Below, one piece after another: positions 922-27,585 of a stretch of DNA of 28,957 nt. The translations under genes and the position numbers were made by a program. Every line of letters begins with the position of its first letter. The stretch's first letter is position 1. This DNA comes from a virus: IMG/VR virus record IMGVR_UViG_3300042936_000216, positions 1 to 28,957 of that record; one strand, 5' to 3'. The notes under the pieces are model-generated. The model was not told the DNA's origin and ran no database searches. It saw only the letters and a program-made list of their open reading frames with translations.

Positions 922-3900
922 TTATCCATTTCCTGAAGGGCCTATAATACCCGCAATTGTATTATTCAACTCTGCTTTACTTGTATTTATTTTTGTTTGT
1001 ATACCTTCAATTGCAGTTGCACCAGAGCCAGTAACTGAAGATAACGCTGTTTTAGCAGTAGCCGTTATTTGTGTAGCACTAGAGGTCACTGTATTCACTG
1101 AATTAGTAACTGTCTTGATAGTTGAATTCACTGAGGAAACAGTAGATGATACAGATGTCGCTGCTTTAGTTAAGGAAGTCAGTGAACCACCGAGTGAAGA
1201 CGCTCCTCTAGATATTCCTGATACTGCACCAGTCAATGAACCTGTTAACTCAGATAGGCCAGATGTTAGACTTGATGCTGCATTAGCGATTCCACTAGCA
1301 GTCTCTCCGGCACCGGCAAGAAGGTCACCGGCAACATTATTAATATTATCTAAATTAATGATGTCATCTAAAAGTTTAGCGTATTCAGGATCAGTTGTTG
1401 CCTTATCAAATTCAGCAAGTGCTTTTTCAATTGCAGGATCTCCTGCAGGGAGATTTAGTTCTGCTTCATTATATGCTTTTGATTTTTCAAAAATCTTTTT
1501 ATCAAATTCAGCAAGTTTATCTTGAAGCTGCTGATATTTTTTACCAACATCAAGTAGTTTCTGTGCTTGATCCTTAACATCCTGAGTAATTTCACCCAGT
1601 AGATTTGGTGTCGGGATTTTGGGATTGCCAAGAACAGATTTAATTTGCGAAGTGATTGAGCCTCTATCGGTAGTATTAAATCCTACAGCAGGAAGCTTGA
1701 TGGCAGCAGCACCGCCGGCACTAAGTGCTGACACCGATGATGCTAGTTCTGCTGCTGCCCCGGCTGGCAAGCCCTTAGATACAAGTGCAGTTAGATTATC
1801 TAATTGCCCTCCGATATCATTTGCAAGTTTTTCCGCACTTTGTAGTCCGCTCATTACTGATGTCTGTGCATCCTTAATAAGCCCAGTAAGACTGCCTGCA
1901 CCCGGAATGCTGTTTACTGCCCCGGTTGCTTTGTCGAGTACCGAGGATACCGACTTAATGCCACCTGCTAAATTACTAATACCAGATGCTACTTGAGATG
2001 ACACTGCGGCAGACGCACCTTTAGCAACAGTTGATGCGGCAGTAGATAATGCAGCCGTGCCGCCTGCTGCTAGAGCTGGACCCGCGCCAGCAAGACTACT
2101 TACATTATCAATTGCCCCAGTAATCTTATTAGCAGTGCTAGTAATAGATGTTGCGGCAGTAGATACGGAGTTTAGGGTATTAGCAAATGATCCAACTGAT
2201 CCACTAATTTTATTAGTTAATTGTCCAAGTGAACCGTTAACTGCTGAGACGGCTCCACTGACGCCAGCAACAGTATTTTGCATTGAACTTGTAATCGAAC
2301 TTAACGAAGATGTAGTTGACTTGATTGAACCGGTTAATGACGATACTGCGCCTAATGCACCGGATACAGATGCGGTCGCAGTGTTTACAGTGTTGGATAT
2401 ACTTTTCGCATTATCAGCTAGAGTACTTAATGAGCCTCCGACATTTTTAAGAGCGGCTGATGCACCACTTAATGCGCCGGTTACGCCGCCTATTGCATTA
2501 GTTAGCTGACCGGCTGCCTTACCAACACTTGATAGCCCCTCAGTGAGACCCTTAGAAGCCGAAGTCAATGTTGCGCTAAGCTGCGAAAGTTGTCCTGCCT
2601 CAGCTTGTGCTTTAGCTGCTGCTTCTTTAGCAATCGCAGTAAGATTCTGCGGTACACCGGGCTTGAATGCCTTGAATGAATCCTTAATTGAGTTGAACGC
2701 ATTAGTAGCAATGCCTTTTGCTGCGTCTTGAATTCCAGTAAGACCAGCAGGTCCGCCTGCATTCTTCATGGCGTTCAACGCACTTGAGAGTCCTCCCAAT
2801 CCACCTAACTTATCAGCGAGTCCTGCTGCTGCTGTTCCAGCACCGATTGCCTTAAGTGCATTTGTTGCGCCGCCTACAGCACCTGCTATCTTGTTAGCAG
2901 TATTGATAGCTCCAGACACTTGATTCAATGCACCAGATACTTGATTCAATGCTTGACCTGCGGCTGAACCCACTAGTCCACTGACTGCGCCTGATACGCT
3001 GGTTAGTGTGCTGCTTGCTTTTCCTGCAACTTGAGAGATTGCAGCAATAGTTTCTTTTGGTCCTACTGTAGCTGCGGCAGTGACTAATCCGGTTGTAGTA
3101 CCCGAAGATTCATTTCCGGTTAGTACACCACTGTTAGTGAGAAGTGTTTGTGCTTTCTGCATTGTAGTCGCCATTCCTTGCGCTTGTGCAGAAGTATTTT
3201 TTACGAATGATGTAAGATTCTCAGCACCCGGGATAGCAGTGAACAATGATGATGGCAATGCCTTATCAATGATAGATGTCGCAGCGTTTAGTCCAGTTGC
3301 AGTCACCTTAATGATGTCATTTGCTTGCGTAGCGATACCATTAATCAACGTAGATGCACCTGGCTTGAGTACTCCAGCTTGCTCCATTTGCTTTGGCGTC
3401 ATTGCAAATGAACCTACAGCTACCGTTGCAGATTCGGAAGACGATGTTTTAGTTGTTGTTGTTACTCCGTTAGCTGTGGTAGTAGTGGTTGATGAAGAAG
3501 ATGTTACTGAAGTAGTCACCCCGGATGCTGAAACAACCGCAGCACCTTGGGTAGTTGCTGCCGCAGCAGGTCCTTGTGCAGCCGTAGTAGCAACACTTGC
3601 AATTGCAGCATTCGTTGGTCCAGGCCCCATTGCTTTCGAAACTGATGGAGTAGTAGCTGGCACTGATGCTGCTGTCGCAATAGCTGGTGGAGAAGCGTTA
3701 GTTGCTGCTGCCGTAGTTGTTTGTTCTACCGCCGCAGAAGGTGCTGCCGGAAGTGAATCACTTGCGTTAAGAGTAGTCTTGACATCAACCCCTTGACCTG
3801 CGTTTGACCATGGTGCGTGTGCCGGAGCACGAGACGCAATAGTTAATAGTTTTGCTGGCGCTGCAATGAAACCTTTTTCTTCATCAAACAATGTATCAGT

Positions 3901-5190
3901 CTGTGCAACAATAGGAATTACAGGAACATCCTGTGGAGTAGTGCCTGGACCACCTGAGTTAAGATTTACTTTGCTACCGTTGACATATGCAATCCCGCCA
4001 GCAACCAACGAAGCTTCGCCGCCTGCTTGAAGCGCAACCGCACCGCCGGCTTTTCCTAAGAAATTCCCAATAGAAAATGCTTGAATATCTTTACCGGATC
4101 GAATCTTAGTATCTTCTTCTGAGTTAGTTTGAATGTTTTTACCCTGAAGATTTAGATTCTCCATAGCGTGAATGTTAATGTTTTGGTCAGCGTGAAGATT
4201 TAAATCTCCCTGTGTTCTAATGTTAACTGAGTTAGTAGAGTACATATCAATTGTACCCTCTTTACCCAACTCAATATATGATTGTCCATTTGAGTGAAGA
4301 ATCATCAATGTTTGACCATCATCGCTCATTAAGATTTGATGACCTAATGCTGTACGAATACGAATTAACTGGTCACGCCCGATAACGTCACCGTCATCCA
4401 TAACGAAACTGTGTCCACCTCTACGAGCAATGATTTTTAATTGGTCCGGCTTAGCGTCTTTTAGATTCTTTGCAAGACTAGCATCATCATAGCCGCCCTC
4501 GTAGATAGGTCTACCGGGAGTAGATACGCCCCAGCCCACTCGGCTAGCTGGTTCACGACTTGCACTTGAACTGATAGGGCCACGAATAGGATCACGAATA
4601 ATTCCCTGTTGGCTCATGATACTTGCTGTGTAGCTATGAACTGGTCTTGCTGTGTCTAGATATTTGTTACTATCTGCTACACTTTTATCATTAGTATTGA
4701 TGTTCGTGACAGGCAATCTAGTTGCGCCGCCGTAGCTATTTGCTTCACCTGCGTTAGTAACGATGTTGTCACTTGAACCAATTGCCGGCACCATCTGTAG
4801 TGCATCCGCTTCTGGAATACAGCCAATATAGAAACCATAGTTAGGGTCACCATTGACAAATATACAAAGTACTTTTGTTCCGATATCGGGAGGGGCATGC
4901 CATTCACCGTAACTGCTTGGATTTGCAGTATAGTCACCTAGACCAGTTTGACCTGCTGTGGGTTTAACCATACCAAAGAAATTACTAAGATAGCTTACGG
5001 TGACCCAACCGCCAGAATCATCTGAGTTAGTAGGAATACTTTTATCAGATAACAATACTTTAATTCGACCGGAGCGAGTAGGATCAATATTGTCCTTAAC
5101 AATACCAATTACCGGGGCTGTCTTATTCCCGCCGGTACCGCCGCCTTTTGTGTCTGCTTTACTTTGTGTTTTAATTGTATCTGTTGGCAT
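922..5190 (-). CDS. 5: Baseplate central spike gp5 with OB domain, beta-helix and giant low-complexity tail; no lysozyme domain
   Basis: A 1422-residue protein, much longer than T4 gp5 (575 residues). Residues about 25-135 form the gp5 OB-fold domain (IGIVKDNIDPTRSGRIKVLL, later GTKVLCIFVNGDPNYGFYIG). Residues about 250-410 show the short alternating repeats of the gp5 beta-helix needle (GTIDMYSTNSVNIRTQGDLN, then LHADQNINIHAMENLNLQGK). The 115 residues between them are too few for a T4-type lysozyme domain and show no catalytic motif, so the spike probably does not degrade murein. From about residue 450 to the end the protein is dominated by Ala, Ser, Thr, Gly and Val with quasi-heptad repeats. 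A charged, helix-prone segment interrupts it at about 1190-1285 (KKYQQLQDKLAEFDKKI). The gene follows the hub protein gene by 18 bases and precedes gp25 by 10, consistent with a baseplate operon. The function of the long tail is unknown; a fibrous extension of the tail tip or an assembly scaffold are guesses. Confidence 0.93.
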   Translation of the reverse strand: MPTDTIKTQSKADTKGGGTGGNKTAPVIGIVKDNIDPTRSGRIKVLLSDKSIPTNSDDSGGWVTVSYLSNFFGMVKPTAGQTGLGDYTANPSSYGEWHAPPDIGTKVLCIFVNGDPNYGFYIGCIPEADALQMVPAIGSSDNIVTNAGEANSYGGATRLPVTNINTNDKSVADSNKYLDTARPVHSYTASIMSQQGIIRDPIRGPISSSASREPASRVGWGVSTPGRPIYEGGYDDASLAKNLKDAKPDQLKIIARRGGHSFVMDDGDVIGRDQLIRIRTALGHQILMSDDGQTLMILHSNGQSYIELGKEGTIDMYSTNSVNIRTQGDLNLHADQNINIHAMENLNLQGKNIQTNSEEDTKIRSGKDIQAFSIGNFLGKAGGAVALQAGGEASLVAGGIAYVNGSKVNLNSGGPGTTPQDVPVIPIVAQTDTLFDEEKGFIAAPAKLLTIASRAPAHAPWSNAGQGVDVKTTLNASDSLPAAPSAAVEQTTTAAATNASPPAIATAASVPATTPSVSKAMGPGPTNAAIASVATTAAQGPAAAATTQGAAVVSASGVTTSVTSSSSTTTTTANGVTTTTKTSSSESATVAVGSFAMTPKQMEQAGVLKPGASTLINGIATQANDIIKVTATGLNAATSIIDKALPSSLFTAIPGAENLTSFVKNTSAQAQGMATTMQKAQTLLTNSGVLTGNESSGTTTGLVTAAATVGPKETIAAISQVAGKASSTLTSVSGAVSGLVGSAAGQALNQVSGALNQVSGAINTANKIAGAVGGATNALKAIGAGTAAAGLADKLGGLGGLSSALNAMKNAGGPAGLTGIQDAAKGIATNAFNSIKDSFKAFKPGVPQNLTAIAKEAAAKAQAEAGQLSQLSATLTSASKGLTEGLSSVGKAAGQLTNAIGGVTGALSGASAALKNVGGSLSTLADNAKSISNTVNTATASVSGALGAVSSLTGSIKSTTSSLSSITSSMQNTVAGVSGAVSAVNGSLGQLTNKISGSVGSFANTLNSVSTAATSITSTANKITGAIDNVSSLAGAGPALAAGGTAALSTAASTVAKGASAAVSSQVASGISNLAGGIKSVSSVLDKATGAVNSIPGAGSLTGLIKDAQTSVMSGLQSAEKLANDIGGQLDNLTALVSKGLPAGAAAELASSVSALSAGGAAAIKLPAVGFNTTDRGSITSQIKSVLGNPKIPTPNLLGEITQDVKDQAQKLLDVGKKYQQLQDKLAEFDKKIFEKSKAYNEAELNLPAGDPAIEKALAEFDKATTDPEYAKLLDDIINLDNINNVAGDLLAGAGETASGIANAASSLTSGLSELTGSLTGAVSGISRGASSLGGSLTSLTKAATSVSSTVSSVNSTIKTVTNSVNTVTSSATQITATAKTALSSVTGSGATAIEGIQTKINTSKAELNNTIAGIIGPSGNG
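2912..2953 (-). repeat. 21-bp tandem duplication encoding LNQVSGA twice
   Basis: Two adjacent 21-base copies differing at one position (CCAGACACTTGATTCAATGC and CCAGATACTTGATTCAATGC on the plus strand, each plus one base) encode consecutive LNQVSGA heptads in the low-complexity part of gp5. This is direct evidence that the long tail grows by in-frame unit duplication. Many other more diverged heptads surround it. Confidence 0.85.
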
Positions 5191-15623: not shown

Positions 15624-15848
15624 TTAGAAATACGGCAGTTGGGATTTCTTTGTGATGTCAATATGTTCTTCTATAAGACTATTGATATGCTCACGTTCTT
15701 CTGAGGACATGTTAAGGACATCTTCGTATGACGCGCCGCCCCTCATATGCCAGGACAATGAAAGGGCGCTACGTTTTATCCCCGAAACATCTTTTTCGTA
15801 TGTTTCAATGAGCTTCTTGACCTCTTCGGGTGAGGATTTAAGAAGCAT
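15624..15848 (-). CDS. Small tail/baseplate assembly protein, probably also made as a frameshift extension of the gp26-like protein
   Basis: 74 codons: MLLKSSPEEVKKLIETYEKD leading to SLSWHMRGGASYEDVLNMSS, then EEREHINSLIEEHIDITKKS and a C-terminal QLPYF. The 'LSWHMRGG-x-SYEDVL-x-MS-x-EERE' core is typical of small tail-assembly chaperone frames that accompany tape-measure genes. By position it could be the gp51 counterpart. Its ATG overlaps the upstream stop as TAATG, allowing termination-reinitiation. It is also in the -1 frame relative to the upstream gene immediately after a slippery heptamer (see 15854-15860). So it may be expressed alone, as a fusion, or both. No Shine-Dalgarno sequence is evident before its ATG. 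Assignment of T4 number is uncertain. Confidence 0.7.
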   Translation of the reverse strand: MLLKSSPEEVKKLIETYEKDVSGIKRSALSLSWHMRGGASYEDVLNMSSEEREHINSLIEEHIDITKKSQLPYF

Positions 15849-16675
15849 TATTCGAAAAAATCAGTAGGGTTCAGTGTAATTGATTGTTCGTATTGATGAC
15901 TGCAACTTGCACAAGTAAAAGTCATTGGTTTGATTTCACTCTGCTCTCTAATTTTAGAGCTATAGTCTCTGATTTGAATATAGAGATTTCTATCACAGTG
16001 TTGCAAGAAGTCAAGAATATAGTCAAGTTCAGTTACTGGAATGCTAGGGGTCTTGATGTGAACAATAGACTTACTCAGAAGTACCATTGTTAAGTTTGTA
16101 ATTCTAGCAAGAGCCTCTTGCATTGCCTTAGACTTTTGATCTTCGTCAGTCATATTCTCAAGTGAAGCAAACATTCTCTGTAAGTCAAATTGTTCGATTG
16201 ACGCTTGATTGACTTCTTTGAAAGAAAGCGGTCTAAACTTGATAGAAAGATCGCCTACTTCAAGTTCAGTATCAAAGTCTGGATTAGTTAGTCCGGCTAA
16301 GATTCCACCGAGTACAATCTTAAAGGTAGAGACATCTTCGCACTTAGGACACTGTGATTCAACATCCATTTCACCTGACGGTGAAGATGCTGCTTTAATA
16401 GCAACTAATAGTGCATCAAGGTCTACGTTTGTTACTGCCCAAGGGTCTTTGATGTTTGGTACGCAGCTTCTAATTAGTTCTACTACCGCAGTACCATTAA
16501 AAAGGGCGTCAGGTGTTCTTGCTGTAATCTCATCGATTGCAGTCATAGGATAGATTGGTAATTCACCATTGTCAGGTAAGTCCAATGCACCTTCAGGATA
16601 TCCGGCACCGCCTGATGGGAGCTTCATGTATACAGAAGGTCTTCTGAAATACTGTTTTAGTGGGTTATTTTCCAT
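15848..16675 (-). CDS. 26: Baseplate hub / tail-assembly protein gp26-like with split CxxC zinc motif
   Basis: 275 residues; T4 gp26 has 208. The N-terminal region contains a YMKLPSGGAGYPEGALDLP segment and IYPMTAIDEITARTPDALFN, followed by CVPNIKDPWAVTNVDLDALL. This is the pattern I know from T4-type gp26 baseplate hub proteins in marine myoviruses. CPKC (109-112) and CASC (255-258) form two cysteine pairs that probably bind one zinc ion and close the domain. The start ATG at 16675 has GAGGACC seven bases upstream. The gene ends GAT TTT TTC GAA TAA, with a slippery heptamer two codons before the stop. It is transcribed divergently from the tape-measure-like genes, sharing a palindromic promoter region, so production of chaperone and tape measure may be coordinated. 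Confidence 0.72.
   Translation of the reverse strand: MENNPLKQYFRRPSVYMKLPSGGAGYPEGALDLPDNGELPIYPMTAIDEITARTPDALFNGTAVVELIRSCVPNIKDPWAVTNVDLDALLVAIKAASSPSGEMDVESQCPKCEDVSTFKIVLGGILAGLTNPDFDTELEVGDLSIKFRPLSFKEVNQASIEQFDLQRMFASLENMTDEDQKSKAMQEALARITNLTMVLLSKSIVHIKTPSIPVTELDYILDFLQHCDRNLYIQIRDYSSKIREQSEIKPMTFTCASCSHQYEQSITLNPTDFFE
15854..15860 (-). promoter_or_regulatory. Slippery heptamer T-TTT-TTC for probable programmed -1 frameshift
   Basis: In the zero frame of the gp26-like gene the codons are GAT TTT TTC GAA TAA, so the heptamer T TTT TTC has the canonical X XXY YYZ phasing. A -1 slip continues as CGA ATA ATG CTT, entering the frame of the 74-codon gene without a stop and giving a fusion of about 350 residues. 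I see no obvious strong downstream stimulatory hairpin. Confidence 0.6.
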
Positions 16676-16764: not shown

Positions 16765-19700
16765 ATGGATGTAGGATTAATTCAACAGATTAACGATCAG
16801 TTGAGAGAAATGAATGATCTACTGGGACGACAAGCAGCCGCTATGTCAGCAACCATTGAAGCTACAAGAAACGCTACTGAAGCTACTAACAAACAAAAAT
16901 ATTCAAATAACAGCACAAACTCAGCCCAACAGAGTGCAGGAACACAATATTCTGCTCAAACTAAGCTATCTGAAATGTCAAGGGCGGCGGCTGATAAAAC
17001 TGCGGATGCTAACAGTAAATTTTCATCTGCACTTGAGCAAGGTAAATCTGCATTCGTAGGATTAGCAGGCGCACTGCTTGATACAACCCCGGGACTTTCA
17101 AAATATACTAATAGCGTGGAAACAGCAACAGGTGCTGTTACTAGCGTAGTATCTGTATTTGGTCCTTTAGGAGCAGTAGCTGGATTCCTTTTAAAAGGAC
17201 TATCACTTGTAATCGGGGAAGCATTTAAGTATAGCGATGCTTTAGTTGACGCATACGATTCTGTTTCTAAATCCGGTGCAGGCATCGGAACTAGTGCTGA
17301 AGAACTTGTAAAATTAGGTCACGCTGCCCGATTATCTTCTGGTACTTTACCGTATCTAACAAAAAATATTGACGCTTTAGGTAGTGATATTCGTGCATTG
17401 GGTACGACTAGTTCCGGCGGGGTAGAAGCATTCTCTAAAGTAATCGCCGTTGGGGAAAATCAACTCAAAGGTTATCGCAATTTAGGATTCACACAAGAAG
17501 AACTTATTGAGTCTCAGGCAAATTATCTTAAACTACAAGCATCGGCAGGGGCTGACCTAAAGAAAAGTCCGGAGCAATTACAGAAAGCATCACTACTATA
17601 CATTGATGAATTAAATGCATTTGCTGAAGTTACTGGCATTAGTAAGAAAAAACAAGAAGATGCACTAGCACAAGCTATGGCGCAGGAAAATTTCAATGCT
17701 TACATTAACAAGCTTGAAAGTGATAAGGCTGCTGCCGCTGCCCGGGGTGACAAAGAAGAAGAAGCTAGAATCCAAGGTGTGATTCAAGCTAAACAAAATC
17801 TAGCGAAATACGCACAATCAAACTTTAGTGCAGCAAAAGCACAGGCAGTACTAGAGGGTATTGCTACTGATGGTAATACCATCATGACTGAAAATACTGC
17901 AAAGTTGAAACAGTCTGGTATTAATATTGAACAAATCAATGCTAATGCTAACAAAGGTATTGATCAAACTGGCGAACTCGCTGGTCAAAGCGCCCAAAGT
18001 GCTGAGAACTTTAAAAAGAATTTCGGTGAGCTGGGTTATGCTGCCGGTAAAGAATCTAGAAATCTACAAGATACATTCTTCCAAGACAACGGTACTCGTA
18101 TGGCCGCAGCCAGAGACGCAGACTTAAAGGGTGAAGACAGACAAAAAATATTCGACAAGAGAATGGCGAATGCCCGTGCAGCAGCCGAAGCTAAGAAAAA
18201 TGAGAACAGCGGAATCGTAGCAAAGAAGGCAGCAATAGAAGCACAAGAACGTGCTGCAAGAATTGCGTTTGACGGTTTAATGGGTCCGCTATCAGACCAG
18301 TTAAACGGATTATTGTTAAAAGTTCTCCCTTACATAACAAATCTTATACAACTGGTATCAGACAATTTTGGTTTAATAACAACCGCTGCTAAAGGATTAG
18401 CGATTGTATTTGCGGGCTTAGGCGCAGTCGCAGTAGCAGGAAAAGTCATAGGATCACTGAGGTCATTTGGAAGTAAAGTAAGCGGGCTGTTCGGCAAGAA
18501 AACAGGAGCACCTGGGTCTAAAGGCAACCCCATGCACGTAGCTTTCGATGAAAGTTCAGGCGATTTGGGAGGACTTACAGGTGGAAACAAAAGCCCATCT
18601 GATGGTGGAAAAGGCGGCGGCAAAAGCGGTGGCACTGCAAGTGCATTAAAACTTGCTGCAAAATCTGCGCCGCAGATACTATTGGGTGCAGCTACCTTGG
18701 GCGCAGCAATGGTAGAAATAGCCGCAGGTTTAGCAGCAGCAGTTTGGTTAACGGGTGCAGCACTTCCTAAATTTGCTAAAGGTCTAAAAGCATTTGAAAA
18801 GCTCGACGGAGCTAATCTAAAGAATGTTGGCATCGGTGTAGCGGGGCTCGGCGTCGGCATACTAGGACTGGGAGCAGGCGGAATTGCGAATGCAATTGGA
18901 AATCTAGTAAACTACTTCACCGGTGATAAAGACCCACTTACCCAATCAGTAGAAATGCTAGAGAAGTTGCAGAAAATACCTCTTGATAGAAAAAGAGTAG
19001 AGGACAACGGAGCAGCATTGATTGCATTTGCTAAAGCAATGGCTGCTGTAGCTGGGTTAGGTGCAGTAAGCGGAATCGGTAATGCGATTAAAGGATTATA
19101 TGACGGTATCGCTAACTGGGCCGATGCTACATCAGTCTTTGATGACTTTGTAGAATTTTCTCAACTAGACATCGACGCAAAGAAAACAAAAAATAACTCT
19201 ATTGCATTTAAGTACTTCTCAGAAGCAATGGCAAGTTATGAAGGATTAGGTAGTCCGATAGGAGCGATAGCAGAATCACTAGTTCAAGCTACTAACTCAT
19301 TCTTTAACACTAAGCCTCCGTTAGAACAGTTTGTATACTTTTCACACTTAGACATCAACAAGAAAAAGACTAAAAACAACGCACAATCTTTTACACTGTT
19401 CTCAGAGGCAATGGCATCATATAGAGGCGGTCAAGGTTTATTAAGTGCAGTAAGCACTGTTGCCGGTGCCGGGTTAAACAAACTGTTTGGACAAGATAGT
19501 GCTGTCGATAGCTTCTACAATTTTTCTAAGAAGGATTTTGGTAAAAATGCAGAGTCAAATGCTAGAGCATTTTTAGATTTCTCTAAAGCGATGAATATTT
19601 TGAGCGGCGGTCAAACAAGCACTATGTCGCAAATCGCTACCGGAGCAGCAGCAGTTGGTGCCGGGATTGTTGGTGCAGTAGGCGGTGCGGCGTCAGCCGT

Positions 19701-20550
19701 CTGGAAAGGAATCAAGGGAGGATTCACTAGCGCCGCAGACTTTATTGGCAAATTTGAAGGCTTTAGTGGTAAAGCTTATATGTTCCCTGGAGAAAAATTG
19801 TATACAATTGGCTTTGGACACGTTATTCAACCTAACGAAATTAAAGCAGGAAGACTACCAACCGGCGTACCGATTTCTGGAAACTTAGGAAAAGATACAG
19901 TAATAACGAAAGACCAAGCAACTACATTGTTACAACACGATCTTCCTAAATATGAACAACCTGCTGCCTCGGCTGTGGGTTCAGGCTGGTCATCCATGTC
20001 TGCTCCGCAAAAGGCAGCCTTTACATCGTATGCATATAATGCAGGACCTGGGGGAGTTAATAAATTTGTTAGAAATAATAAAATCCCAGAACTTGCACAA
20101 CAAAAAGATTGGGGTGCGATTTCTACCGCTTTTAGAGAGCGCGGCGTAAAAACAGGCTCAGGTAAATTCTTACAAGGTCTAGCAAATCGCCGCAATGCAG
20201 AGTCACAATTAATGATGCAAGCAAGAGCTGGCGGTATGTTTAAAGGTCCAACCGGCGGTTACCCTATCGAGTTGCACGGTACTGAATTAGTAATTCCGGT
20301 TACTCCGGATTCGATTTTATCCAAGCTAGCTGAGGGAACAGTTGACTCATCAAAGATGACTGATAAAATTTTAGATACAGTTACCGGCATGTTAAATGGA
20401 GATTCCCCTGCTACCGAGGTTGATCAGTTCTTAGAATTAGATAATCAAATGAAAGGAATGCTTATTAGTAAAATCAATAAGATGCTAGATGTATTAGACG
20501 ATAAACAAAGTACTTCTAAAAAGGTGTTTAGAAGCAAAGTAGCAAGTTAA
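16765..20550 (+). CDS. Tape-measure-like tail protein with C-terminal GH24 lysozyme domain (paralogue 1)
   Basis: 1261 residues. The N-terminus (QQINDQLREMNDLL) is coiled-coil-like. Residues about 60-500 are helical and Ala/Gln/Lys-rich. Hydrophobic Gly/Ala segments near 535-565, 635-665 and 690-720 resemble the membrane-active stretches of tape measures. Four degenerate repeats of about 61-70 residues lie at about 720-950, with the core FS-x-LDI-x-x-KKTKNN-x-x-x-F-x-x-FSEAMASY. Residues about 990-1155 form a lysozyme-type domain: FEGF with candidate catalytic Glu998, then YTIGFGH with Thr1014. The Asp expected nine or ten residues after Glu is replaced by Phe/Pro. The tail then reads GGMFKGPTGGYPIELHGTE, a motif common near the end of tape-measure proteins. 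T4 gp29 is only 590 residues. The role would be setting tail length and opening the murein during DNA entry. Downstream is a full-length paralogue. Confidence 0.8.
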   Translation: MDVGLIQQINDQLREMNDLLGRQAAAMSATIEATRNATEATNKQKYSNNSTNSAQQSAGTQYSAQTKLSEMSRAAADKTADANSKFSSALEQGKSAFVGLAGALLDTTPGLSKYTNSVETATGAVTSVVSVFGPLGAVAGFLLKGLSLVIGEAFKYSDALVDAYDSVSKSGAGIGTSAEELVKLGHAARLSSGTLPYLTKNIDALGSDIRALGTTSSGGVEAFSKVIAVGENQLKGYRNLGFTQEELIESQANYLKLQASAGADLKKSPEQLQKASLLYIDELNAFAEVTGISKKKQEDALAQAMAQENFNAYINKLESDKAAAAARGDKEEEARIQGVIQAKQNLAKYAQSNFSAAKAQAVLEGIATDGNTIMTENTAKLKQSGINIEQINANANKGIDQTGELAGQSAQSAENFKKNFGELGYAAGKESRNLQDTFFQDNGTRMAAARDADLKGEDRQKIFDKRMANARAAAEAKKNENSGIVAKKAAIEAQERAARIAFDGLMGPLSDQLNGLLLKVLPYITNLIQLVSDNFGLITTAAKGLAIVFAGLGAVAVAGKVIGSLRSFGSKVSGLFGKKTGAPGSKGNPMHVAFDESSGDLGGLTGGNKSPSDGGKGGGKSGGTASALKLAAKSAPQILLGAATLGAAMVEIAAGLAAAVWLTGAALPKFAKGLKAFEKLDGANLKNVGIGVAGLGVGILGLGAGGIANAIGNLVNYFTGDKDPLTQSVEMLEKLQKIPLDRKRVEDNGAALIAFAKAMAAVAGLGAVSGIGNAIKGLYDGIANWADATSVFDDFVEFSQLDIDAKKTKNNSIAFKYFSEAMASYEGLGSPIGAIAESLVQATNSFFNTKPPLEQFVYFSHLDINKKKTKNNAQSFTLFSEAMASYRGGQGLLSAVSTVAGAGLNKLFGQDSAVDSFYNFSKKDFGKNAESNARAFLDFSKAMNILSGGQTSTMSQIATGAAAVGAGIVGAVGGAASAVWKGIKGGFTSAADFIGKFEGFSGKAYMFPGEKLYTIGFGHVIQPNEIKAGRLPTGVPISGNLGKDTVITKDQATTLLQHDLPKYEQPAASAVGSGWSSMSAPQKAAFTSYAYNAGPGGVNKFVRNNKIPELAQQKDWGAISTAFRERGVKTGSGKFLQGLANRRNAESQLMMQARAGGMFKGPTGGYPIELHGTELVIPVTPDSILSKLAEGTVDSSKMTDKILDTVTGMLNGDSPATEVDQFLELDNQMKGMLISKINKMLDVLDDKQSTSKKVFRSKVAS

Positions 20551-20556
20551 TATCTA

Positions 20557-20563
20557 CTAAATA
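20557..20563 (+). promoter_or_regulatory. Putative late promoter between the two tape-measure paralogues
   Basis: CTAAATA lies in the 34-base gap between the paralogues, 22 bases before the second ATG. It is the same element as at 16712 and 24382, which suggests each large tail gene has its own late start in addition to read-through. Confidence 0.5.
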
Positions 20564-20584
20564 TTAAGTCATATGGAATAATAA

Positions 20585-23500
20585 ATGGATCCGGAATTAC
20601 AACAACAGATTAATGACCAATTGAATGAGATGTCTGAATTACTCAGACAGCAAAATTCCTATATGGCTAATCAAGTTAAGATGATGAATTCAGTTTCCGC
20701 ATCAATGACTAATCAGGCAACTGCTGCAAATAGCTCAGCTAAAGCCGGTAAAGACGCGGCAACTGCTACTGGAAATTCTACAAAGCTTTCTGAAATAACA
20801 TCTAACGCTAACAAATTACAAGTCGAAGCAATGAATCGATTGTCCTCGTCATTTGAGACTGGTAAAAAATCACTACTTGGCTTTACTCAAGCAATGCTTG
20901 ACGTTACTCCGGGTATGGCAAAGTATTCAGAGAGCATCAAGGGAGGAATTGATTCTGTAGGTAATTTTGCTGCTGGATTTGGTCCGTTGGGCGCAGCTTC
21001 ATCGGGATTACTTAAAGTATTCTCGCAGTTAGTAACTGCATCTTTTAATTATGTCGATGCTATTGTTAAGGGCTACGATGATGTAGCTAAACTGGGCGGC
21101 GGTATAGGAACTACCGCAGAAGAAATTGCGCAGTTAGGGCAGCAAGCAGGACTCTCGTCTGGTACTCTAGAAATTTTTACAAAAAATGCCGGAAGTCTTG
21201 GTAGTAACATTAGGGCTTTAGGGGCCACTACATCGGATGGCGTTAAAAACTTCGGCAAATTCATTGCTGTCGGAGATCAAACTTTACAGCAATATAGAAA
21301 ATTAGGATACTCACAAGAACAATTAGTAGAAGCACAGACCAAATACCTAGACCTACAAGCTAAGTCAGGTGCTGACTTAAGACGTAGCCCGGAACAACTA
21401 CAGAAAGCTTCGTTGAAATACCTTGACAGTTTGAATGTTTTAGCTGAACTTACTGGTAACAGTGTTGAAGAACAACAGGCAGCACTTGATGCAGTATTAG
21501 CACAAGAAAACTTTAATGCCTACATTTTCAACATGGAACAAGAAAAGGCTAAAGCACTTAAAGAAGGCAATACTGCTGAAGCAGCACGTATCGAAAAAGT
21601 CATTGAAGCCAAGACTAATATGGCAAAGTTTGCTCAAGCAAACTTAGATGCTGAATCTGCAACTGCGGTTATGGAAAGTATCGCCACTAACGGAAAAACA
21701 ATTTATACTGAAAACAATGCAAAATTGTTGATGAACGGTATTAAAATTGATGAGATGAATGATCAGACTAACCAAGGTATAGATCAGACTGCTAGGTTAG
21801 CCGGTGAAAATGCTAAAGCAGTTGAACGATTCCAAAAGAACTTTGGAGAAATGGGTTATGCTGCTGGTAAGTCCTCACGAGAACTACAAGAAACATTTGG
21901 GATAGGCAATAAAGCTCGTGCAGCCGCAGCAAAGTTTTCTGATTTGAAAACTGAAGAAGGTCAAAAGCAATGGTATAAAGAAAAAGCCCAACTTGAAGCA
22001 GAGCAAGAAGCCAAAAAAAATGAAACAGCTGGTGTAGTAGCGCAGCGCGCCGCAGTTGAATCAAATGAACGTGCCGCCAGACTTGCATTTGACCAGTTAC
22101 TGAAACAGATGTCAGATATGCTAATGAATTTAGCATTAAAAATTATGCCCCATATCGTTACTGCTATCTCTTTTGTATCTAACAACTTTGATAAGATTGT
22201 TTCAGTGTCTAAGGGATTAGCAATTGCTATGGGTGCATTGGCAGCTGCCGCAGCCGTCGGTAAGATAGTTAATGTTTTCCGCGGATTAGGAGATTCAGTT
22301 AAAGGACTATTTGGTAAAAAAGAAGGTCCTGCAGGAAGTAGCTCAGACAATCCCATGTACGTTAAAACTGCTGGCGCCGCCGGAGCATTAGGTGATTTAG
22401 TCGGCGACAGTAGCGGCGGAGGCAAGGGCGGCGGCGGAGGTAAGGGCGACGGCGCAATGGATAAGTTATCCTCAGCGTCATCTGCTGGTGGTAAATCTAG
22501 CGGCTTCTTAATGAGTGTAGTTCGAGCATTAGCATATGCAGGTCGTGCTGCACAATATATCGTACTTGGTGCAGGCGCAGTTGGCGCAGCCATTGCTCTG
22601 GTCGGCGCAGGCATAGCTGGCGCAACTTGGATTATAGGAGGAGCATTACCTAACTTAGCTAAAGGTCTCAAATCTTTTGACAAACTAGATGGTCCTAATC
22701 TGAAACAAGTTGGTATAGGTATGGCAGGACTAGGTGCTGGCATACTTGCAATGGGCGCAGGCAAAGTTGCGGGTGCTGTTGGCAACCTAATAAACTTCTT
22801 TGTAGATGGCGAAGACCCTATCGAAAAGGTGTCATCGCAGGTATTCAAACTACAAGAATTAGACATCGATAAGAAGAAGGTTGAAAATAATTCTGCGGCT
22901 CTAGTAGCGTTTTCTAAAGCAATGGCTTCTGCATCAGCAATAGGCGCAGCTGGTTCTATTGCAGGAGTTGCATCGGCAATGGCTGACGGTGTGTCATCAT
23001 TCTTCTCGGATAAACCCCCTTTCCAAGACTTCGTTGACTTTTCACACTTAAACATCAATGCAAAGAAAACAAAAAATAATGCTGTAGCTTTCAAGTACTT
23101 CTCAGAAGCAATGGCAAGTTATGAAGGATTAGCAAGTCCAATCGGCGCGATTGGTACTGCTCTTGCCGAAGCAGCAGCTAAATTCTTTGGAGTAAAACCT
23201 CCGTTAGGACAGTTTGTAAGTTTCTCTCACCTTAATATTGACGCCAAGAAAACAAGCAGCAACGCTAAAGCATTTATTTCATTTGCTAATGCAATGGCTG
23301 AATACAAGGGCGGACCAGGTTTACTCGATACTGTAAGTTCATTAATCGGTAAAGGATTCAATGCATTATTCGATCAAGACGGTCCGGTTGAAGCATTTGC
23401 TAAATTCGCTGCTAAAGACTTTGGTCCTAAAGCAAAAGATAATGCAGAAGCATTTAAAAAATATGCCGAAGCCTCTGGCATGCTCAGCGGAAACTCCACC

Positions 23501-24379
23501 AGCGGAAGCTCCCCCAGCGGAAGCTCCCCCAGCGGAAGCTCCCCCAGCGGATTTAGTGGTGCAGTCCAATCAGGGTTAGAAACTGGCGCAGCAGTGGGAG
23601 CTGGAGCAGTGGGTCTAGTAGGCGGGGCAATTGCTGGCGGTGCAGGGCTAGTCTATAATGCAGTTGATTGGGCCAAAGCAAGAATAACAGGCAAGCCCAC
23701 AGATGTTCTTAATTTTACTGCAAGATCCGGCAGCTATGCAAACTTCACGGCATTAGATCCAGATATGCAAAAAGCAGTAATTATGGCAGCAACAGATTAT
23801 AAAAAAGCCACCGGACGAAAGATGCAAATGAACAGTGGTCGCCGAGCAGTTGCTGACCAAGAAAGACTTTGGGCTGAAACAGTAAGACTCGGGACACCGG
23901 GTAAAGGTCCACAGGGAATGTTAGTTGGTAAACCACCTAGACTAGGTGGAAATCCTCCGCACTTGAGAGGTAATGCTATTGACTTGCAAGAAGCTAAAAG
24001 TGACCCATCACGTGCCTTGCCTATTCTTGCGAGATATGGATTAAAACAAACTTACGGTAAAAAAGATGCAGTTCACGTGGACTTAATGAGGGCACGAGAC
24101 GGCGGCTTGTTTGACGGTCCTGGTAAAAGCTATCCTTCTGCGATGAAGATGATGTCTTCATTGGATACTGAATCTATCGTTATGAAGCTAGCTAAAACAC
24201 CCGCAAGTGCAGCAAAGAATGATAAGAAAAAGGATGCACCGGATAAAAATGTTGCAGCAATCTATTCACAGAATAGCCAGCTTACCTTTGAAATCTCGAA
24301 AAAGTTAGATCAGGTCATTGACGCATTAGAAAACGACAACTCAGTGCAGAACAAGATATTAAAACATTCTAGGGCATAA
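20585..24379 (+). CDS. Tape-measure-like tail protein with C-terminal M15 zinc-peptidase domain (paralogue 2)
   Basis: 1264 residues, colinear with the preceding protein from the N-terminus (QQQINDQLNEMSELL) through the hydrophobic segments and four repeats (about 743-965; e.g. FVDFSHLNINAKKTKNN and AFKYFSEAMASYEGL). The paralogues then diverge. After a Ser/Gly/Pro minisatellite linker (about 967-989), residues about 1039-1170 form an M15 (VanY / L-alanyl-D-glutamate peptidase-type) domain. It has a SGRR motif, zinc ligands His1126 and Asp1133 in HLRGNAID, and His1164 in VHVDL, all intact. Similarity to paralogue 1 resumes weakly at GG-x-F-x-GP and in the closing coiled coil (SKKLDQVIDALEND). 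The predicted role is peptide-crosslink cleavage by a tail-resident protein, complementing the glycan-cutting partner. Whether both proteins reside in one tail tube is not shown by sequence. Confidence 0.8.
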   Translation: MDPELQQQINDQLNEMSELLRQQNSYMANQVKMMNSVSASMTNQATAANSSAKAGKDAATATGNSTKLSEITSNANKLQVEAMNRLSSSFETGKKSLLGFTQAMLDVTPGMAKYSESIKGGIDSVGNFAAGFGPLGAASSGLLKVFSQLVTASFNYVDAIVKGYDDVAKLGGGIGTTAEEIAQLGQQAGLSSGTLEIFTKNAGSLGSNIRALGATTSDGVKNFGKFIAVGDQTLQQYRKLGYSQEQLVEAQTKYLDLQAKSGADLRRSPEQLQKASLKYLDSLNVLAELTGNSVEEQQAALDAVLAQENFNAYIFNMEQEKAKALKEGNTAEAARIEKVIEAKTNMAKFAQANLDAESATAVMESIATNGKTIYTENNAKLLMNGIKIDEMNDQTNQGIDQTARLAGENAKAVERFQKNFGEMGYAAGKSSRELQETFGIGNKARAAAAKFSDLKTEEGQKQWYKEKAQLEAEQEAKKNETAGVVAQRAAVESNERAARLAFDQLLKQMSDMLMNLALKIMPHIVTAISFVSNNFDKIVSVSKGLAIAMGALAAAAAVGKIVNVFRGLGDSVKGLFGKKEGPAGSSSDNPMYVKTAGAAGALGDLVGDSSGGGKGGGGGKGDGAMDKLSSASSAGGKSSGFLMSVVRALAYAGRAAQYIVLGAGAVGAAIALVGAGIAGATWIIGGALPNLAKGLKSFDKLDGPNLKQVGIGMAGLGAGILAMGAGKVAGAVGNLINFFVDGEDPIEKVSSQVFKLQELDIDKKKVENNSAALVAFSKAMASASAIGAAGSIAGVASAMADGVSSFFSDKPPFQDFVDFSHLNINAKKTKNNAVAFKYFSEAMASYEGLASPIGAIGTALAEAAAKFFGVKPPLGQFVSFSHLNIDAKKTSSNAKAFISFANAMAEYKGGPGLLDTVSSLIGKGFNALFDQDGPVEAFAKFAAKDFGPKAKDNAEAFKKYAEASGMLSGNSTSGSSPSGSSPSGSSPSGFSGAVQSGLETGAAVGAGAVGLVGGAIAGGAGLVYNAVDWAKARITGKPTDVLNFTARSGSYANFTALDPDMQKAVIMAATDYKKATGRKMQMNSGRRAVADQERLWAETVRLGTPGKGPQGMLVGKPPRLGGNPPHLRGNAIDLQEAKSDPSRALPILARYGLKQTYGKKDAVHVDLMRARDGGLFDGPGKSYPSAMKMMSSLDTESIVMKLAKTPASAAKNDKKKDAPDKNVAAIYSQNSQLTFEISKKLDQVIDALENDNSVQNKILKHSRA
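23486..23550 (+). repeat. 15-bp minisatellite encoding SGSSP repeats
   Basis: Four tandem 15-base units (the first AGCGGAAACTCCACC, the next three identical AGCGGAAGCTCCCCC) plus a five-base partial unit encode SGNST-SGSSP-SGSSP-SGSSP-SG. The array lies exactly between the tape-measure repeats and the peptidase domain. Perfect unit identity suggests recent expansion. Each unit adds five residues without changing frame. Confidence 0.95.
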
Positions 24380-24409: not shown

Positions 24410-26197
24410 ATGTCATATAAAAAGAAGTTTTTGAACAAGAGCGGGATGTCAAGCCCTATCTCCGGCATGAACAGCAACGCTGGTGCTTGGAACGGCCAAG
24501 ATGGATCAATGTCAGGTGGTTATAGCAACACTGACTTTGGGTACAAGAATTACATGTCGAGACTTCCGGAAGTCTATACTGGTCACCCTAACAGAATTGA
24601 GCGTTACAACCAATATGAAATGATGGATGTTGATGCTGAAATCAACGCTTGTTTAGACATCATTGCGGAATTCTCTACTCAGCGCAACGAACATAATAAG
24701 ACACCATTCAGCTTTGAATTCAAAGATGATCCTACTCCCCACGAAGTAGACTTGCTAACTAAGCAATTGCAGCAGTGGTGTAAACTAAACGAGTTTGATG
24801 TTCGTATGTTTAAGATTTTCCGCAACGTAGTTAAGTATGGCGACCAAGCATTCGTTCGTGATCCAGAAAACTTCAAGTTATACTGGATTGACATGGTTAA
24901 GGTTATTAAAGTAATCGTTAACGAAAGTGAAGGCAAGAAGCCGGAACAGTATGTCATCAAAGACATCAACATTAACTTGCAGAATCTTAGTGTTGCACAA
25001 AAGACTAACACTGACTTTGCTGCTAACCCAGCAACAGGTCTTGGCGGCACGGGCGGCGGCAGTCAAGGCGGCGGCTATACAACCCCCGCAATGCCTTATA
25101 ACACTACGGGTTCACGATTCACATTAGGACAGAGTGAAGCAGCAGTAGATGCAAAGCATATCGTTCACTTGTCATTGACTGAGGGTCTTGACAGATTCTG
25201 GCCTTTCGGTCAGTCGATTCTTGAGAACATCTTTAAGGTCTACAAGCAGAAAGAACTACTAGAAGACGCTGTTCTTATCTATCGTGTACAACGTGCTCCT
25301 GAACGTAGAATGTTCAAGATTGACGTTGGTAACATGCCAAGTCATATGGCTATGGCATTCGTTGAGCGTGTTAAGAACGAAATTCACCAGCGCAGAATCC
25401 CTTCATTGTACGGCGGCTCTAGTGTAGTGGACGCTACATACAATCCACTCTCAATGAACGAAGACTACTTCTTCCCTGTAACAGCAGAAGGTCGAGGTTC
25501 ATCAGTTGAAGTTCTTCCTGGTGGACAGAACTTAGGCGAAATCGATGACTTGAAATACTTCAACAATCGTCTTGCTCGTGGTCTTCGTGTACCGTCATCA
25601 TATCTTCCAACTGGACCAGATGACAATACTACTCCATTGAGTGACGGTCGAGTCGGTACTGCAATGATTCAGGAATTCAGATTCAACCAGTATTGCGAAC
25701 GTCTACAGAACTACATGGCTATGAAACTTGATGAAGAATTCAAGTTGTTCTTGCGCTGGAGAGGTTTTAATATTGATACTCAAATGTTTAGTATCATGTT
25801 TAATCCTCCTCAAAACTTTGCTGCATACCGTCAAAGTGAACTAGACAATGCTAGAGTAAGTACCTTCACTGCTATGGAGACTCTCCCTTATATCTCAAAA
25901 CGTTTTGCACTCGAAAGATTCTTAGGATTGACCGAAGAAGAAATCAAGCGCAATGAAATGCTTTGGGAAGAAGAAAACAAAGAAGAAGTGCCGATGGACC
26001 CATCTGGTTCAGACCTACGTAATATCGGCATTAGCTCTGGTGATTTCCAATCTGACATTGACACTGCGGATGAAATTGAATCATCTGAAGAAACACCTGC
26101 TGAAGGTCCGGATGTTGCAGGGCCAGTTGATAGTGCAGGCGGAGAAGCTGTGCCAGGCGGAGCAGCAGGGCCGGTAGGCGGCGGTATGCAAATCTAA
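24410..26197 (+). CDS. 20: Portal vertex protein gp20
   Basis: 595 residues; T4 gp20 has 524. Typical T4-portal segments are clear: YEMMDVDAEINACLDIIAEF, MFKIFRNVVKYGDQAFVRDP, RVQRAPERRMFKIDVGNMPS and LPGGQNLGEIDDLKYFNNRL. Twelve copies form the ring through which DNA enters and leaves the capsid, and the portal initiates prohead assembly. A Gly-rich insertion (GLGGTGGGSQGGG) near residue 210 and an acidic, Gly/Ala/Pro-rich C-terminal tail beyond about 540 account for the extra length. It is followed by prohead core, protease and scaffold genes in the same order as in T4. Confidence 0.97.
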   Translation: MSYKKKFLNKSGMSSPISGMNSNAGAWNGQDGSMSGGYSNTDFGYKNYMSRLPEVYTGHPNRIERYNQYEMMDVDAEINACLDIIAEFSTQRNEHNKTPFSFEFKDDPTPHEVDLLTKQLQQWCKLNEFDVRMFKIFRNVVKYGDQAFVRDPENFKLYWIDMVKVIKVIVNESEGKKPEQYVIKDININLQNLSVAQKTNTDFAANPATGLGGTGGGSQGGGYTTPAMPYNTTGSRFTLGQSEAAVDAKHIVHLSLTEGLDRFWPFGQSILENIFKVYKQKELLEDAVLIYRVQRAPERRMFKIDVGNMPSHMAMAFVERVKNEIHQRRIPSLYGGSSVVDATYNPLSMNEDYFFPVTAEGRGSSVEVLPGGQNLGEIDDLKYFNNRLARGLRVPSSYLPTGPDDNTTPLSDGRVGTAMIQEFRFNQYCERLQNYMAMKLDEEFKLFLRWRGFNIDTQMFSIMFNPPQNFAAYRQSELDNARVSTFTAMETLPYISKRFALERFLGLTEEEIKRNEMLWEEENKEEVPMDPSGSDLRNIGISSGDFQSDIDTADEIESSEETPAEGPDVAGPVDSAGGEAVPGGAAGPVGGGMQI

Positions 26198-26742: not shown

Positions 26743-27585
26743 ATGGACATTAAGAAATTTGAAAAGTTAATTGACCTCGTAATCAATGAGGACAACGAAA
26801 GAGCTAACGAGCTATTCCACGAAATTTGTGTTGAAAAATCCCGTGAAATCTTTGAGTCAATCTTGGCCGAAGATGACATGGACATGGAAGACGATTCACT
26901 TGAAGAAGGTGATGAAGGTGACATGGGCGGCCAAGTAGGTGATCTACTTGATGAAATTAACGCAGAAGAACAAGGCATGACCGAAGACGAAGAAGAAGAT
27001 ATCGACTTTGGTGATGAAGAAGTAGAATTCGGAAGCGACGAAGACGGCGAAGACCTAGAAGGCGGCGATGAAGTTGAAGATGCTGTAATCCGCATCGAAG
27101 ACAAGCTAGACCAGTTGATGGCTGAATTTGAAGACATCATGGGCGGCGGCGCAGACGCAGGCGATGACATGGACTTCGGAGGCGACATGGACGGCGACGA
27201 AATGGACTTCGACGGCGAAGAAGACGAAGAAGCAATGATGGAAGCTGTTCAGCTTAAGAAAGTTTCTGTAACTCATGGCGACAATGGCGTACAGACAAGA
27301 AGCCCGAGCCTACAGAACTCAGGTCAGGCTGGCATGGACAGCAACCCAGTAAAGTTCAGCGGTCACGATGAAGCAGTTCCTACTGCTCCTAAGGCTCCAA
27401 GCAATTTCTACTCAAAGGGTGAAACATCTGTAAAGGGTGCAGGCAACTTCAAGAATGCTCCTGGTAAGGATAACTTCAAGGACAAGGGCGAAGCAGCTCC
27501 TAAGCCAAAGCACGGTGACGATGGTGCACACACCAGAAGCCCAGTTGCTGAATCACGTAGACCAGCACGTAGACCAATTCGCTAA
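26743..27585 (+). CDS. Very acidic prohead core-type protein
   Basis: 280 residues with AGGAG ribosome-binding site at 26730-26734. Residues 1-45 are a normal-looking helical domain (KFEKLIDLVINEDNERANEL). Residues about 45-165 are extremely acidic, with long runs of Asp, Glu and Gly. The C-terminal 110 residues switch to Lys/Arg/Pro/Ser-rich, with a repeated motif, HGDNGVQTRSP near residue 178 and HGDDGAHTRSP near residue 260. It ends RRPARRPIR. The acidic composition and position just before the protease suggest a functional counterpart of T4 gp67, an acidic core protein of 80 residues that is processed by gp21. The great length and the basic tail are unlike gp67, so homology is not claimed. 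Confidence 0.65.
   Translation: MDIKKFEKLIDLVINEDNERANELFHEICVEKSREIFESILAEDDMDMEDDSLEEGDEGDMGGQVGDLLDEINAEEQGMTEDEEEDIDFGDEEVEFGSDEDGEDLEGGDEVEDAVIRIEDKLDQLMAEFEDIMGGGADAGDDMDFGGDMDGDEMDFDGEEDEEAMMEAVQLKKVSVTHGDNGVQTRSPSLQNSGQAGMDSNPVKFSGHDEAVPTAPKAPSNFYSKGETSVKGAGNFKNAPGKDNFKDKGEAAPKPKHGDDGAHTRSPVAESRRPARRPIR

Follow-up and report, generated by a model that had tools for sequence, protein, structure and literature searches.

The 28,957-nt viral sequence IMGVR_UViG_3300042936_000216, referred to below as the window (WIN in the list of loci), contains two adjacent genes whose products are homologous over most of their length and carry different wall-degrading enzyme domains: a lysozyme-type, glycan-cutting (GH24) domain in the first and a putative M15-type zinc peptidase in the second. 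Related viruses also carry such genes in tandem, with complementary enzyme classes, replaceable enzyme cassettes, and a mosaic relationship between the N- and C-terminal halves. The pair probably represents paralogous tail tape-measure proteins with distinct and long-standing roles, most likely exerted in the same tail.

Architecture of the two tandem paralogues

A preliminary description of the window had recognised two adjacent genes that are colinear to about residue 950 and then encode different enzymes, and had suggested pairwise alignment of their products. BLASTP bore this out, matching residues 1-946 of the first protein to residues 1-967 of the second with 475/967 identities (49%, E 0.0). 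This similarity is far above chance level and is no low-complexity artefact. A second match (24% over 119 aa, E 3e-7) pairs the segments that follow the enzyme domains; each enzyme is thus inserted into a common frame. The four internal repeats noted earlier are also present in both proteins, each being a helical unit with the pattern F..FS.L.I..KKTKNN..AF..FS.AM.SY.G, and the helices of an AlphaFold model of the first paralogue correspond to them. The body of the protein is modelled as all-alpha, with a mean predicted local distance difference test (pLDDT) score of 61.6 and values of about 85-93 across much of residues 180-490. The features of the two genes are:

16765..20550, plus strand: first paralogue (glycan role), 1261 aa, ATG start
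17032..18444, plus strand: N half of the first paralogue (residues ~90-560), modelled as all-alpha; follows phage clade, not role
18937..19614, plus strand: four helical repeats of the first paralogue (residues ~725-950), role-specific
19750..20202, plus strand: GH24 lysozyme-type cassette (residues 996-1146, Pfam PF00959), catalytic Asp position apparently replaced
20212..20547, plus strand: C-terminal tail of the first paralogue, with the motif GG.F.GP..GYP.ELHGTELVIP
20585..24379, plus strand: second paralogue (peptide role), 1264 aa, ATG start, beginning 34 nt past the first
22820..23497, plus strand: four helical repeats of the second paralogue
23486..23554, plus strand: Ser/Gly/Pro repeat linker of the second paralogue, where homology to the related locus L005 stops
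23551..24091, plus strand: exchangeable cassette of the second paralogue, M15-type peptidase (HLRGNAID...VHVDL), Amidase_2 in L005
24092..24376, plus strand: C-terminal tail of the second paralogue, with a degraded LHGTE motif

Domain profiles and BLASTP together support the proposed glycan-plus-peptide pair of tandem paralogues, with reservations for each enzyme. The lysozyme-type domain stands as a family assignment (PF00959, E 1.6e-16), but its catalytic triad appears incomplete: in a PDB alignment to the T4 gp5 lysozyme, Glu and Thr are present while the Asp position is non-acidic (YMFPGEKLYTIGFGH), whereas GH24 domains in relatives retain the catalytic Asp and an intact triad (YKDSLGLWTVGVGH). 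The domain is accordingly classed as GH24-like, and its activity is uncertain because of this substitution. The predicted M15 peptidase shows the intact zinc signature HxxGxAxD...H, with ligands invariant across four aligned homologues, and the protein matches PHROG 2649 (endolysin, E 1.4e-5). Its Pfam match, by contrast, is weak (PF02557, E 0.72), below the cut-off, as are those in relatives (E 0.0003-0.2), and the region has no sequence match in the PDB. Structure prediction of the C-terminal domains, another earlier suggestion, fell short at the M15 end, which reached a pLDDT of 45.6 and was left out of the fold search.

Copy number, enzyme classes and cassette exchange in relatives

Scans with both proteins and with the gp26-like protein encoded next to them located over 100 related loci. 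The multi-copy group comprises T4-like, mostly aquatic bacterial viruses. The family gene lies between two recognisable neighbours, which in the window are:

15848..16675, minus strand: gp26-like baseplate hub gene (phrog_150, E 4e-13), the divergent neighbour used for locating relatives
24410..26197, plus strand: portal gene, gp20 (phrog_213, E 2e-107)

This slot holds one family gene in most relatives. Two copies are present in WIN, L005, L007, L009/L010, L014/L015, L016, L017, L018, L026, L029, L030 and L046, corresponding to at least ten distinct two-copy loci, and three copies in L024 and L025. The search of related genomes suggested earlier has thus recovered both two- and three-copy loci, and the window is not a one-off. 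In the loci checked, the tandem copies lie close to each other or overlap by one base. The enzymes, in gene order, are:

WIN: GH24, M15
L005: GH24, Amidase_2
L009: GH73, M15
L046: SLT, M23
L014: M15, GH24
L016: Amidase_2, lysozyme-like
L017: M15, SLT
L018 and L030: M15, GH24
L024: M15, none, lysozyme-like
L025: M15, none, NPGN lysozyme-like
L026: M15, GH19, with a further M15-like stretch recognised by eye
L029: none, lysozyme-like

Some of these labels (M15 in L017, NPGN in L025 and that of L029) derive from PHROG matches or motifs recognised by eye, not from Pfam. Although the enzyme families vary, all multi-copy loci with both enzymes identified (11/11) combine a glycan-cutting with a peptide- or amide-cutting class. 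A permutation test of this complementarity gave 0.003, or 0.01-0.02 with near copies thinned, the loci being not fully independent. The C-terminal motif HG[TS]E follows the same division: all 13 glycan copies retain it, and 12 of the 15 remaining copies have lost it. Both classes also occur within one chain of several single-copy relatives (L051, L057, L062, L069 and L087, as well as L034 with weaker matches). A scan of GTDB genomes for hosts returned two short contigs of metagenome-assembled genomes and was uninformative.

Cassette exchange, which the preliminary description had proposed, is documented by two comparisons. Locus L005 is 99.4% identical in DNA to the second window gene over 2967 nt, ending at position 23550 within the Ser/Gly linker. 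Past this point an amidase replaces the M15 domain, and homology returns at 24092 (84.6%) before rising to 90% into the portal gene. The junction reflects recombination or, possibly, an assembly chimera; in either case, there is a closely related strain that bears a different cassette. Copies of the amidase cassette were sought elsewhere, and only that of L005 was found. In the second comparison, L024 and L025 are ~87-94% identical in DNA, and the cassettes of their first and third genes differ between conserved flanks. Such natural exchange between linker and tail marks sites for enzyme replacement in this family.

Several relatives show other gene arrangements. The family gene appears to be split into two or three open reading frames (ORFs) in L055 (4154-7664) and L103 (3465-6973). 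In L062 (1166-5974), an unrelated 574-aa ORF sits between tape measure and portal, and the 1020-aa portal gene contains an intein-like insert whose end reads ...HTFAIDAGIFVKN, followed by S. Synechococcus phage S-CAM1 (L107, 1942-7593) encodes two large 'hypothetical' proteins past gp26, of 1036 and 839 aa, both with the motif GG..GP..LHG[TD]E and with weak mutual similarity in one segment (29% over 100 aa). A GH73 match (E 1.3e-5) was obtained for the second, and an M15-like stretch in the first was seen by eye only. These genes possibly constitute a parallel pair in cyanophages.

Mosaic histories and the roles of the two chains

The proteins are mosaics: residues ~90-560 track the phage clade, while the repeats and the tail track role across clades, the switch from clade to role lying near residue 560-600. 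Within the N half (residues 100-330), copies from the same genome are 53-54% identical, a figure that reaches 66% for the middle and last L024 copies, whereas copies from different clades share about 23-34% identity; role leaves no signal here. In the N-terminal tree, multi-copy loci fall into four separate supported clades interspersed with single-copy ones. In the repeats and the tail, by contrast, copies from different clades generally resemble each other more closely when they have the same role. Between clades 2 and 3, likeness in the repeats is 0.57/0.56 for same-role and 0.38 for different-role copies, and in the tail 0.58/0.64 and 0.26, respectively. This same-role likeness is weaker in other clades and does not extend to the first copy of the triplets, which is an extra one; the enzyme-less middle copy of the triplets is a relative of the peptide-role proteins. 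The tails split perfectly by role with one change (0/500 shuffles), though the splitting branch is weak (51/19); the repeats of glycan copies likewise separate, also on a weak branch. In approximately unbiased (AU) tests, grouping by role across clades 2 and 3 was rejected for the N half (p 1.4e-5), grouping by clade for the tail (p 4e-33), and grouping of clade 1 for the repeats (p 5e-4), these p values being nominal because the groups were chosen after the first trees had been viewed. One single-copy relative with a high family score (L117, 5751-9905) carries GH24, and its repeats cluster with those of peptide-role copies.

Two histories accommodate this pattern: one ancient duplication followed by gene conversion of the N halves, or several duplications followed by transfer of C halves. 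Four independent duplications, as read from the N-terminal tree, were rejected as a firm claim since trees of the repeats and of the tail contradict it. Either history implies two stable roles, and the mosaic structure argues for long-lived, distinct functions, not for redundant or interchangeable copies. Alternatively, the duplications might be recent and independent, with enzymes lost incidentally and the copies left largely redundant. Such a history would agree with the four separate multi-copy clades among single-copy loci, and the single-copy relatives bearing both classes show how complementary loss could yield pairs. However, the role-specific C halves are common to those clades, complementarity holds in all 11 loci, and long open frames are maintained at ~50% divergence, which makes such redundancy quite improbable.

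The two chains may act jointly or alternatively. Under alternative use, each virion would contain one tape measure, and two kinds of particle would carry different wall-cutting enzymes. The two genes are indeed complete, co-oriented and built on a common protein frame, and the exchange of cassettes suggests that the phages adapt to the walls of their hosts. Interchangeable copies, however, would be expected to retain all functions, whereas here the repeats and the tail are specialised by role across clades and only non-glycan copies have lost HG[TS]E. Nor was any switch, for instance an inversion, observed. Joint use is favoured because of this constancy of roles, the invariable complementarity of enzyme classes, the loss of the motif in non-glycan copies and the close or overlapping genes, and alternative use appears unlikely.

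A specific form of joint use would be a hetero-oligomeric tape measure, in which both chains, in roles fixed long ago, are present in every tail, the N halves evolve in concert and the C halves are specialised, and in which some phages would have three chains; we consider the chances of this arrangement to be even. Under joint use, which is the favoured reading, both paralogues would be built into one tail, where equivalent places in a single assembly could keep their N halves alike within each phage. The C halves differ: one chain bears a glycan-cutting enzyme and its partner an enzyme for peptide or amide bonds, and, judging from domain identity, both types of peptidoglycan bond might be cut together during injection. 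The enzyme itself is a replaceable cassette, flanked by a flexible linker and by the conserved tail, that recombination swaps while the class belonging to each role is kept. A conserved pair of this kind would mean that a mixed oligomer can govern both tail length and wall penetration, and it makes tape-measure stoichiometry testable.

Several observations weigh against joint use of two specialised tape measures. The catalytic Asp of GH24 appears to be replaced in the window phage itself, L029 has only one recognisable enzyme, and the multi-copy loci are almost all metagenome contigs. L005 may be chimeric at the linker, although the L024/L025 replacement is clean and keeps both flanks. The preliminary description had further suggested that near-equal lengths maintain a single tail length. 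Support for this idea is weak: the start-to-repeats distance differs by up to 113 residues in other pairs, with a median difference of 21 within and 38 between genomes, and near-equal length is no strict rule. In addition, the diffocin tape measure, whose structure is known at full length, forms a homotrimer (PMC10996793).

Putative tape-measure identity, known systems and neighbouring genes

The putative identity of both proteins as tape measures is well, though indirectly, supported by PHROG and Foldseek matches, synteny and length. Both are long, mainly helical proteins in the slot between the gp26-like gene and the portal. Among single-copy homologues, L096 (E 9e-40), L087 (E 2e-14) and Erwinia phage pEa_SNUABM_47 (about 1e-6) have matches to tape-measure families in PHROG, and Foldseek with the AlphaFold body retrieved annotated tape measures and the syntenic Atu_ph07 protein, with low TM-scores. 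In named phages, the gp26 - X - gp20 slot encodes one protein of 709-845 aa, which is annotated as a tape measure in pEa_SNUABM_47 and as detected by mass spectrometry in PA5oct. Profile comparison links the window proteins to these slot proteins (97%, E 1e-11), and Pfam detected no enzyme domain in three of them. Their lengths (845 aa for a 136-nm tail, 798 aa for 136 nm and 709 aa for 133 nm) are about right for the tails of these single-gene phages. The motif GG.F.GP..GYP.ELHGTE also occurs near the end of the tape measure of Salicola phage CGphi29.

The two proteins could instead be other internal tail proteins or ejected enzyme carriers, with the true tape measure encoded elsewhere. In keeping with this, comparison with T4 gp29 revealed no detectable homology (hhalign probability under 1%), and gp29 was rejected as a homologue; a PDB fold search with the AlphaFold body gave nothing significant, and related proteins are mostly annotated as just 'structural' or 'hypothetical'. 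Searches of named-phage DNA and proteins with both sequences recovered no relative beyond a short endolysin match. The PHROG and Foldseek matches and the fit of length to tails of 133-136 nm nevertheless point to tape measures, and no better candidate was found within the inspected part of the PA5oct genome. A role other than tape measure is therefore a minority prospect, if a slightly better one than alternative use. Atu_ph07 gp701 (L111, 14510-15127) is annotated as 'tail length tape measure protein'. The 845-aa gp197 beside the portal is the better candidate in that phage, since gp701, at 205 aa, is too short for a 136-nm tail.

Tape measures are usually regarded as one protein per phage, present in identical copies. 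In T4, the hub operon containing gp29 is divergent from gp26, and gp5 bears the tail lysozyme. The window shares the divergent gp26 arrangement, but its proteins lack detectable homology to gp29, and its lysozyme-type domain resides on a tape-measure-like protein, with none on the gp5-like protein. The slot proteins of PA5oct, Atu_ph07, XaC1, Phosso and pEa_SNUABM_47 resemble the window pair in synteny and N-terminal profile homology; they differ in being single-copy and shorter, without an enzyme domain in the three scanned by Pfam. Hydrolase-bearing tape measures are known, for example in mycobacteriophage TM4, whose likeness lies in a peptidoglycan hydrolase motif on the tape measure (PMC1796659). 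Such phages have one tape measure each, whereas here two or three tandem copies divide the enzyme classes. The hub-hydrolase of diffocin similarly delivers glycan- and peptide-cutting domains together (PMC10996793), but on a single hub polypeptide accompanied by a separate homotrimeric tape measure, and not on two tape-measure paralogues. Searches of the open-access literature found no description of tape-measure paralogues in tandem with complementary enzymes, and the mosaic N/C make-up of the proteins is likewise new here. The family profile may also assist the search for a tape measure in jumbo lineages reported to lack a recognised one (PMC12619734).

The remaining window neighbours identified by PHROG search include a prohead protease, a late sigma factor, a gp46/47-like SbcCD and a RusA-like protein. 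The portal is ~50% identical to those of the jumbo T4-like phages PA5oct, Atu_ph07, XaC1, Erwinia Eneladusvirus and Phosso. Between portal and prohead protease lies a 280-aa ORF (26743-27585) without a PHROG match. The gene relevant to the tail lysozyme is:

922..5190, minus strand: gp5-like hub/spike protein, 1422 aa; OB domain present, lysozyme domain not detected

The presence of the OB domain only agrees with the earlier statement that gp5 of this phage lacks the lysozyme domain, and contrasts with Atu_ph07 gp5, which matches the lysozyme-like profile phrog_90. The latter hub protein (L111, 11705-14302) also has a C-terminal HtrA-like serine protease domain. The window gp5-like protein has a long coiled-coil-like C-terminal part and is ~3x the size of its PA5oct counterpart (477 aa).

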